A DNA stretch of 64,000 bases from Moraxella ovis (GTDB taxonomy: Bacteria; Pseudomonadota; Gammaproteobacteria; Pseudomonadales; Moraxellaceae): NCBI RefSeq assembly GCF_900453105.1, contig NZ_UGPW01000001.1, positions 496,001 to 560,000 of the forward strand, given 5' to 3'. The notes beneath the pieces were generated by a model, which was not told the origin of the DNA, did not search any database, and saw only the letters and a list, made by a program, of their open reading frames with translations. Positions 50,869-56,570 of this stretch are shown one piece after another. Both the position numbers and the translations under genes were made by a program. Each line of letters opens with the position of its first letter. The stretch's first letter is position 1.

Positions 50869-53733
<2,865 letters not shown>

Positions 53734-53805: not shown

Positions 53806-54024
53806 ATGAAACCTTTTATAAAATGGGCGGGCGGTAAGAATTCTTTGCTTGATGAAATTCAAAAACGCTTGCCTGATTTTGTCCACTCACAAGATTTTTG
53901 TTTGGTAGAGCTTTTTGTTGGTGGTGGGGCGGTGTCCTTATGGGCATTGTCCGATTTGCCACATCTAAAACAGCTTATCATCAATGATTACAATGCCGAT
54001 TTAATCAATGTTTACCCACATTAG
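53806..54024 (+). pseudogene. N-terminal stump of a Dam-class (DpnM-like) adenine methylase
   Basis: 72 residues matching only the start of Dam/DpnM-type N6-adenine methylases: [15 protein letters not shown] (motif X), [15 protein letters not shown] (motif I) and [13 protein letters not shown]. It then stops at TAG after Tyr-Pro-His. Intact enzymes have about 270 residues; the target recognition domain and the DPPY catalytic motif are missing, so it cannot methylate. The break falls right where the AT-rich DpnI cassette begins. Confidence 0.85.
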
Positions 54025-54186
54025 CTCTAATCTTTAAAAGATAAACAAAGTATTGGGTTTATTATTTTTATTTGGCTGTCATTTTAATCTAAGTGGATTG
54101 TGATGTTTGTTAAATGACATTCAATTAGATTGGATATGGGTAGATACTATAAAAAGATAAAGAGAGTATAGGGCATATAAAAGACG

Positions 54187-54966
54187 ATGAATTTATATTT
54201 TGATAAAAACTTAGCAAATGAATACAGTAGTAAGGCTCAAATTGCAAGAGTTTTAACTGAAAATTGGGTGTTGAATAACTCATATTGTCCCAAATGCGGA
54301 AATCTGCCATTATCTGAATTTGAAAACAATCGACCTGTTGCTGATTTTTACTGTCAAAATTGCCTCGAAGAATTTGAGTTAAAAAGTAAAAATGGTCGTT
54401 TGCCCAATGTGATAACAGACGGTGCTTATACAACGATGATAGAGCGTATCAACGCTAATAACAGCCCAAACTTTTTCTTCTTAACTTATGATAAACAGTG
54501 GCGAGTTAATGATTTTTTGATTATACCAAAACAATTTTTTACTCCAAGTATTATTATCAAAAGAAAGCCTTTGTCGCCCAATGCAAGGCGTGCAGGCTGG
54601 GTTGGATGCAATATTGATATATCCAATGTTGTTGATTTTGGTAAAATTTTTTTGGTCAAAAATTCTCAAATAATTAATCAAAATTTGGTGCAAGAACATT
54701 TTAATAATACCTTATTTATTCGCACTAAGAATATAGAGTCAAGAGGTTGGATATTGGACATAATGATGTGTATAGATAGTATTTCAAAAGATACTTTTAA
54801 CCTAAAAGATATTTATGATTTTGAAGAGATATTAAAAATAAAATACCCAAACAACAACTTTATTAAAGATAAAATTAGACAGCAGTTGCAAATTTTAAGA
54901 GATAAAGGATTGATTGAATTCGTTGCCCGTGGTCGATATAAAAAGGTAAAATATGCAAACCTATAA
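54187..54966 (+). CDS. dpnC: DpnI-type methyl-directed restriction endonuclease
   Basis: A 259-residue protein closely matching the DpnI sequence I remember. It cuts GATC only when adenine is methylated. The zinc-binding pairs are CPKC (34, 37) and CQNC (56, 59). The PD-(D/E)xK core has Asp53, Glu64 and Lys66 in RPVADFYC and EEFELKSK. ARRAGWVGCNIDIS follows, and the C-terminal winged helix reads IRQQLQILRDKGLIEF. All key residues are present, so the enzyme should be active. The host must lack GATC methylation, which fits the broken Dam-class gene upstream. Confidence 0.95.
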   Translation: MNLYFDKNLANEYSSKAQIARVLTENWVLNNSYCPKCGNLPLSEFENNRPVADFYCQNCLEEFELKSKNGRLPNVITDGAYTTMIERINANNSPNFFFLTYDKQWRVNDFLIIPKQFFTPSIIIKRKPLSPNARRAGWVGCNIDISNVVDFGKIFLVKNSQIINQNLVQEHFNNTLFIRTKNIESRGWILDIMMCIDSISKDTFNLKDIYDFEEILKIKYPNNNFIKDKIRQQLQILRDKGLIEFVARGRYKKVKYANL

Positions 54967-55121
54967 AATACAACTTCAAGAGACTTTATCAAAAATTATT
55001 GAGGTTCAAGCAAGTAACATTGATGAAGCCATTCGTATCGTACAAGAATCCTATCAAAATGAAGATATTGTACTGGATTGGGGTGATTTTGTTTTGGTGG
55101 AATTTGATGATGTTTCTGATT
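54951..55121 (+). CDS. dpnD: DpnD-like small protein
   Basis: A 56-residue ORF beginning MQTYKIQLQETLSKIIEVQA and ending LVEFDDVSD. Its ATG lies inside the end of the DpnI gene (16-base overlap), so translation is coupled. The pattern ASNIDEAIRIVQESYQNEDI matches the DpnD/PcfM-like family found next to DpnI in Streptococcus pneumoniae. Function unknown. The stop is TAA at 55121-55123. Confidence 0.85.
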
Positions 55122-55123
55122 AA

Positions 55124-55566
55124 AAATTACTTCGTATTTCTCTTGCCGTTATTTTACCTATTCAAGTGAATGGATAATTTGGGCAAGAAAACATTCTAAG
55201 ATACCACATTATTTTAACCATGATTTGATGAAAAAATTAAATGGCGACAAACAACAAAAAGACATATGGCGATTGCCTGCGGTGGGCAGTTGGGAAAAGA
55301 CACAGGGTAAACACCCTACTCAAAAACCACTTGGGCTTTTATCTCGTATTATATTATCATCTACCCAAAAAGGCGATTTGATTTTAGATCCATTCTCAGG
55401 TTCTGGTACAACAGGTATTGCGTCAATATTGCTTGATAGGAAATATGTCGGCATTGAACAAGAATTGGAATTTTTGGAACTATCAAAAAGGCGTTATCAA
55501 GCAATGACACTTGAATCAAAATATGAATTTAAACAAAAAATTCGTGAACAAATCAGTGTGATTTAA
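55124..55566 (+). pseudogene. C-terminal half of a DpnA-class methyltransferase
   Basis: An in-frame reading from just after dpnD runs through SCRYFTYSSEWIIWARK, HYFNHDLMKK, KHPTQKPLGLLSRIILSS and ILDPFSGSGTTGIASILLDR to a stop at 55564-55566. These are the C-terminal part of a beta-class DNA methylase such as DpnA, where the SAM-binding motif follows the recognition region. The DPPY half is absent. A Met at 55228 could start a small product, but it would not be a full enzyme. Confidence 0.82.
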
Positions 55567-55595: not shown

Positions 55596-56570
55596 TCAAG
55601 GAGACTTGTAGTGTACGTTAATACAAGTATTTTTTACGCTATGTATGTCAATAATTTGACGGATTAACCCCCCAACAATCCCCCTCGCCACCCTAAACAC
55701 CCCACAATGCCCCTCTGCCACCGTATCTACATTGTCCGAATAGCCCCCGCCCATGACGACAGCGACAGGTATGCCGTAGCGGTGGGCGACACTTAGCACC
55801 ATTTCATCACGCTCATGACAGCCTTGCATGGACAGCGACAGCTTACCGAGCTTATCGGTGGCAAGCACGTCCACACCCGCCTGATAAAAGATGAAATCAG
55901 GACAAAACTCATCAATCACTCTGGGTAATGTATCGGCAAGCACGCCCAAATACTCATCATCGCCCGTGCCGTCATCAAGCTCGATGTCTAGGTCGGACGG
56001 AGGTTTGATAAAGGGGTAGTTCTTTTTGCCGTGCATACTAAATACAAAAACATCAGGATTGTCCGCCATGATAGACGCATTGCCATTGCCCTGATGTACG
56101 TCCAAATCCACGCTCAAAATGCGTTTGGCTTGCCCTCGTGTCAAGAGCAGGTTGCTTGCCACGCACACGTCATTAAACACACAAAAGCCCTCGCCATGCC
56201 CTGCAAATCCGTGATGTGTTCCGCCTGATGTGGACAGGGATATGCCGTATTCTTTGGCGTATAAGGCACATTCATAGGTGGCGTGTGTGATGTAGCGTTC
56301 TCGTTTGACAAGTTCTCCCGACATGGGCAGACCGATTTTGCGAATTTCTTTTTCGGTTAGCGTACCTGTTTTTAATTTTTGCCAATAGTCGGCGGTGTGG
56401 GTCGTTAGGATTTCTTGCTCGGACAAGAGTTGGGGGTGAAATAGGTTATCAGGCGTGATAACGCCTTCTTGGAGCAGTTTTTGGGGAATTAGGTCGTATT
56501 TTGCCATAGGAAAGCGGTGGGACGCTGGCACACTATGGCAAAATAGGGGCGAATGGGCGATTTTTAGCAT
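55596..56570 (-). CDS. Histone-deacetylase-family (AcuC-like) amidohydrolase
   Basis: A 324-residue metal-dependent deacetylase-fold protein. The active-site motifs TSGGTHHGFAGHGEGFC and VDLDVHQGNG (metal ligands) and the FYQAGVDVLATD segment are intact. In bacteria these act on acetylated small molecules or proteins; the target is not known. It follows the YbjN gene by 3 bases in one operon. Confidence 0.92.
   Translation of the reverse strand: MLKIAHSPLFCHSVPASHRFPMAKYDLIPQKLLQEGVITPDNLFHPQLLSEQEILTTHTADYWQKLKTGTLTEKEIRKIGLPMSGELVKRERYITHATYECALYAKEYGISLSTSGGTHHGFAGHGEGFCVFNDVCVASNLLLTRGQAKRILSVDLDVHQGNGNASIMADNPDVFVFSMHGKKNYPFIKPPSDLDIELDDGTGDDEYLGVLADTLPRVIDEFCPDFIFYQAGVDVLATDKLGKLSLSMQGCHERDEMVLSVAHRYGIPVAVVMGGGYSDNVDTVAEGHCGVFRVARGIVGGLIRQIIDIHSVKNTCINVHYKSP

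Follow-up and report, generated by a model that had tools for sequence, protein, structure and literature searches.

Probable replacement of the core of a GATC restriction-modification operon by a DpnI-DpnD cassette in Moraxella ovis

We analyzed a 64,000-nucleotide stretch of the Moraxella ovis genome (contig NZ_UGPW01000001.1), referred to below as the window; the genome that carries it is labeled G000, and other G numbers denote genomes of the genus. Within the window, an intact dpnI gene and a dpnD gene lie between the truncated ends of two methylase genes, in a slot flanked by valS and a histone-deacetylase-like gene. The methylase genes are named after the MboI operon, whose name and order we take to be mboA-mboB-mboC. 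The features of the locus are as follows.

53806-54014, plus strand: mboA stub, codons 1 to 69 and part of codon 70 of 294 (profile matches; alignment to intact mboA)
54015-55135, plus strand: insert in the place of the operon core, comprising a leader, dpnI and dpnD (G011, G001 and G008 have no match between the breakpoints)
54187-54966, plus strand: dpnI, 259 amino acids (aa), intact (PF06044, PF17726, 4esj, PADLOC mREase_II)
54953-55123, plus strand: dpnD, 56 aa (PF14207)
55136-55566, plus strand: mboC stub, from inside codon 131 to the stop; the intact gene has 273 codons (alignment to intact mboC)
50869-53733, plus strand: valS, left neighbor of the slot, which flanks the histone-deacetylase-like gene in other Moraxella genomes too
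55596-56570, minus strand: histone-deacetylase-like gene (HDAC), right neighbor of the slot (PF00850)

A preliminary description of this DNA had given the gene order, strand, truncations and overlap, all of which were borne out by the open reading frames (ORFs) and profile matches, and had placed dpnI and dpnD between the first 70 residues of a Dam-class methylase and the C-terminal half of a DpnA-class methylase, which Pfam and NCBIfam confirmed. In the left-hand frame (53806-54024, 72 codons), residues 7 to 70 match positions 1 to 58 of 253 of PF02086 (E = 3e-18) and residues 1 to 70 match positions 1 to 61 of 267 of TIGR00571; this mboA-derived frame continues past the junction to a stop at 54024. 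The right-hand frame (55225-55566) is the end of PF01555 (profile positions 136 to 220 of 221), but homology to intact mboC starts upstream of it, at 55136, so that the stub corresponds to residues 132 to 273 of 273. The assignment of this piece to the C-terminal half of the DpnA class stands; its start has been moved from 55225 to 55136. About 70 of 294 residues of MboA and 142 of 273 of MboC are retained. Methylases of these classes require the DPPY motif. The mboA stub contains FVGGG and ends long before DPPY, and the mboC stub contains DPFSGSGTT and lacks DPPY when compared with G011. With both methylases truncated and the nuclease gone (PF04556, the DpnII-family nuclease, has no match in the G000 genome), the MboI/DpnII-type restriction-modification (R-M) system is no longer complete.

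The DpnI protein of the insert matches positions 1 to 182 of 183 of PF06044 and 1 to 70 of 70 of PF17726 and thus has both the catalytic and the C-terminal winged-helix domains; its residues 1 to 253 align with the crystallized DpnI 4esj (E = 4e-98), and the PADLOC model mREase_II matches it with an E value of 1e-114. Residues D53, E64 and K66, which we take to be the active-site residues of DpnI, are identical to those of 4esj in the alignment, in agreement with the earlier claim of intact catalytic residues. The product is predicted to cut GATC-methylated DNA. DpnD was recognized by PF14207 (E = 3e-14), and the start of its gene overlaps the end of dpnI by 14 bp. NCBIfam gave no notable match for either protein.

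Intact alleles with matching flanks, for which the preliminary description had proposed that relatives be compared, were found within the genus. Among 22 genomes searched, valS was matched in 19 and HDAC in 19, and the valS-HDAC interval was compared in 16 (that of G021 is interrupted by a contig end). DpnI occurs in 4 of the 22, a DpnII-family nuclease in 2, and a D12 match at an E value of 0.001 or better in 14, stubs counted. In G011, the same slot holds an intact mboA (294 aa), a DpnII-family nuclease gene (290 aa) and mboC (273 aa), like the MboI operon in families and order, and the stubs of the window are its two ends; unlike the MboI operon, the window locus has no nuclease, both methylases are truncated and the methylation logic is opposite. 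In G001, whose valS is closest to that of the window (96%), and in G008, mboA and mboC are likewise intact and have ends matching the stubs, but they enclose a different core. That core (L100:1615-3117, L104:2666-4168) consists of oppositely directed genes and adds a third core type to those found in this operon frame. According to Pfam and NCBIfam searches with the G001 copies, its products are a 227-aa protein whose resemblance to MutH falls short of the curated cut-offs, a 180-aa protein that Pfam does not match and a helix-turn-helix protein of 88 aa.

Homology to the operons of G011, G001 and G008 ends at 54014 and restarts at 55136. Since the borders at 54014/54015 and 55135/55136 are identical against all three intact operons, the similarity of the two fragments to them is not due to chance. 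On the left, the junction lies within codon 70 of mboA; on the right, it lies within codon 131 of mboC, where about 10 bases are common to G008. Relative to G011, 1,121 bp (54015-55135) stand in place of 1,912 bp made up of mboA codons 71 to 294, the nuclease gene and mboC codons 1 to 130. The mboA stub shares 97.6% identity with the beginning of the G001 mboA and 96.7% with that of the G011 gene; the mboC stub is 93.0% identical to G011, versus 85.8% and 81.9% to the operons of G001 and G008. The right stub is thus nearer the MboI-type than the MutH-type operons. Taken together, these comparisons make it very probable that the locus was formerly an MboI/DpnII-type GATC R-M operon (mboA-nuclease-mboC), the middle of which was replaced by a DpnI-DpnD cassette; destruction of both methylases by the replacement is well supported. 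Which kind of nuclease was lost is less certain, as G001 and G008 have a MutH-like core enclosed by these mboA and mboC ends.

In the G000 genome, the mboA stub is the only match to PF02086, PF05869 has no match, and PF01555 matches the mboC stub and one other gene. The latter has the motif DPPYNTGNDF, lies beside a helicase-like frame and is assigned PF01555 and a sub-threshold D12 match by Pfam; we take it to be a type III Mod gene. The check for a second Dam gene, which had also been proposed earlier, thus gave no other candidate in the genome with the three families searched, and we infer that the cell probably no longer methylates GATC. The locus appears to record a switch between two opposite defense strategies, in which the host would now restrict incoming DNA containing G-m6A-TC, for example from Dam+ sources, rather than DNA with unmethylated GATC. 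Passages of the review PMC12707154 state that DpnI cuts fully methylated GATC and cuts hemimethylated sites poorly. A cell should tolerate the dpnI allele only without a GATC methylase, and loss of the methylases would be what makes the cassette tolerable. If the methylases were removed as dpnI arrived, GATC methylation could be lost gradually in the course of a few generations as DpnI accumulates, and whether the cell survives would be decided by this race.

The same insert, with both breakpoints equal, is present in three species, namely, the window genome, M. catarrhalis and M. oculi, at identities of 99.4% to G021 and 98.5% to G009. In all three, the 259-codon dpnI frame is uninterrupted, and the other two copies differ from that of the window at 3 and 8 of 780 bases. 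At least some of these hosts acquired the insert by transfer between species. The cassette probably spreads through recombination between homologous flanks (stubs, valS and HDAC), for which natural transformation would be the easiest route.

More widely, 70 DpnI loci were surveyed, among them those of M. catarrhalis and M. oculi. In 26, dpnI is immediately preceded by an MboA-like piece, followed by an MboC-like piece, or both, in the same orientation (both pieces in 16, MboA only in 6 and MboC only in 4). Of the 52 loci with 1 kb or more of upstream and 2 kb or more of downstream sequence, 18 have at least one piece; dpnD follows dpnI in 30 of the 70. The MboA matches of L033, L059 and L086 are short and weak (E = 3e-4 to 8e-4), and matches elsewhere in the compared stretches are few (L036, L079, L085). 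The remains of MboA span about 22 to 107 residues in some loci and are nearly complete in others, and those of MboC start anywhere from residue 13 to past residue 110. In eight loci (L035, L041, L043, L045, L049, L054, L074 and L032), the MboA-like gene, nearly complete or (in L032) frameshifted, runs into a common element of about 100 bp just upstream of dpnI, so its protein lacks its last residues. In the first six of these, dpnI is open as well as the MboA-like gene, a paradox if both enzymes are active; dpnI is the broken partner in L074 and L089. The stubs in Moraxella consist of Moraxella sequence (97.6% to G001) and the Bacteroidota pieces are about 50% identical at the protein level, from which we infer at least two separate takeovers. 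We put forward only tentatively, as a proposal that may well not hold, that DpnI-DpnD is a cassette that has repeatedly taken over GATC R-M operons in several phyla, with many breakpoints between mboA- and mboC-type ends; the survivors in methylating cells would be those losing the methylases in the same event, and the stubs would then serve as homology arms into neighboring species.

Several observations weigh against replacement of an operon core by the cassette. No MboA- or MboC-like neighbor was seen in 44 of the 70 DpnI loci, and in another genus of this family all 8 intact DpnI genes lack one within 1.5 kb (3.5-kb stretches); therefore, DpnI needs no such setting, and a rule that it always lies in Mbo remains is false. 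In several Bacteroidota loci, dpnI stands beside a nearly complete MboA-like gene, which counts against the replacement unless those genes are dead. Finally, promoter-like sites are no more common than in shuffles (9 versus a mean of 9.3), and no claim is made for a dpnI promoter. As for the route, the main alternative to a one-event swap is that GATC methylation was lost first, through decay or silencing of the operon, and that the cassette replaced the core later, in which case there were two steps and the replacement was not the safety factor. This is rather unlikely in our view but deserves serious weight: passages of PMC3573125 (Johnston et al.) argue that a switch of this kind in a methylating cell, in pneumococcus, should be lethal, and the order of events is not recorded in the stub or junction sequence, for which the same picture is expected. 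Nevertheless, as far as the left junction, the mboA stub remains 96.7 to 97.6% identical to intact mboA and contains no frameshift or stop of earlier date. The preliminary description had held that recombination replaced a DpnII-like core in one step, this being the safe way for the swap to occur. Replacement and truncation of the methylases withstood the comparison, with DPPY lost and the remains matching intact operons, whereas "one step" and "safe" went further than the data, since earlier loss of methylation also fits.

A different origin for the shared breakpoints would be independent replacement in each of the three species, or a recombinase that places the cassette at both points. In M. 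oculi, stubs of local ancestry indeed give way to the near-identical insert no more than 23 and 10 bp from the junctions, as such an origin would have it, but both breakpoints agree in the three species despite the removal of 1.9 kb (MboI type) or 2.7 kb (MutH type) each time, later exchange of the flanks with local alleles is a simpler account of the sharp edges, and the ORFs of the insert include no recombinase gene; we regard this origin as very improbable. That dpnI is an unexpressed relic in a decaying island is improbable to a lesser degree: a decayed copy of such a cassette occupies the same slot of G004, whereas the open frame and few differences in three species speak against decay here. 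Least probable, to the point of being negligible, is that the two methylase fragments are unrelated or are ends of different operons. They do belong to different methylase classes, but intact operons carry exactly both ends, in the same order and in the same slot, which contradicts this reading and upholds the earlier suggestion that the fragments are the ends of one GATC R-M operon.

Excerpts of PMC516771 and PMC4269198 describe, for Neisseria, a drg gene situated at leuS/dam; the dam+ and drg+ states are mutually exclusive (23 and 61 of 84 isolates), and dam is truncated by drg in some strains. Neisseria drg is the nearest precedent, and the pneumococcal cassettes are second; DpnI-type genes replacing dam are thus already known, and the window locus is a new, well-resolved case with the same arrangement of a DpnI-type gene at a disrupted methylase locus. 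Judged from those excerpts, the two also share a position beside an aminoacyl-tRNA synthetase gene, truncation of the methylase (in some strains) and horizontal spread. However, the target in Neisseria is dam, whereas the Moraxella cassette took over an R-M operon with two methylases and left both of its ends, and the Moraxella insert was passed between species with sharp edges and stubs of local sequence. For Streptococcus pneumoniae, passages of PMC3573125 and PMC12707154 present DpnI, DpnII and DpnIII as alternative cassettes at one locus and, as far as those passages go, Moraxella is similar in having DpnI with DpnD or a DpnII-type two-methylase operon at the same locus in different genomes. 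The alternation in Moraxella is seen between species (one genome per species compared), while that of pneumococcus occurs within one species. Moreover, the Moraxella DpnI allele retains stubs of the other operon, which to our knowledge the pneumococcal cassettes do not leave. A literature search, judged by titles and abstracts, found no paper about this locus. The locus appears to offer a genomic record, with exact breakpoints, both stubs kept and three species, of the switch argued to be lethal in the passages of PMC3573125 cited above. Its defined junctions make the question of how cells change sides experimentally approachable, and the MboA- or MboC-like neighbors at 26 of 70 DpnI loci hint at a route that may be taken more than rarely.

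The valS-HDAC slot has other contents elsewhere in the genus. In G004 (L112:2694-3040), it holds decayed remnants of the dpnI end, dpnD and the mboC tail, and in L106, L113 and L114 (G017, G016 and G018), it holds other defense-type genes, a PDC-M16 pair and type IIG enzymes. A second chromosomal slot, between a U32 peptidase gene and a ferredoxin gene (L078:189-3715, G019; L115:1522-5807, G003), is occupied in one genome by an MboI-type operon and in another by a divergent pair of DpnD and DpnI with the gene order reversed; 15 of 17 genomes compared have neither system there. In G003 (L115:2961-4697), MboA and the DpnII-family nuclease form a single 578-codon open frame, which looks like a fusion. 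In the order as a whole, DpnI was matched in 15 of 390 genomes at an E value of 0.001, 10 of them above the curated cut-off, with one of those broken.

A GATC-free cassette was considered as an argument and rejected, as GATC scarcity is not specific to dpnI. The insert has no GATC, but neither do 40 of 315 same-length slices of the window; GATC is absent from 51 of 66 dpnI genes counted, and only about 0.33 sites would be expected in the M. catarrhalis copy. Measured against synonymous-codon shuffles, 55 dpnI genes have an observed/expected ratio of 0.27, versus 0.42 for 342 neighboring ORFs. In the latter, none of the other four-base palindromes (16 in all) is avoided as strongly as GATC (455 versus 1081 expected). 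Over the window (1-64000), the palindromes GGCC and CCGG are strongly under-represented (0.16 and 0.25), and the ratio for GATC is 0.57.
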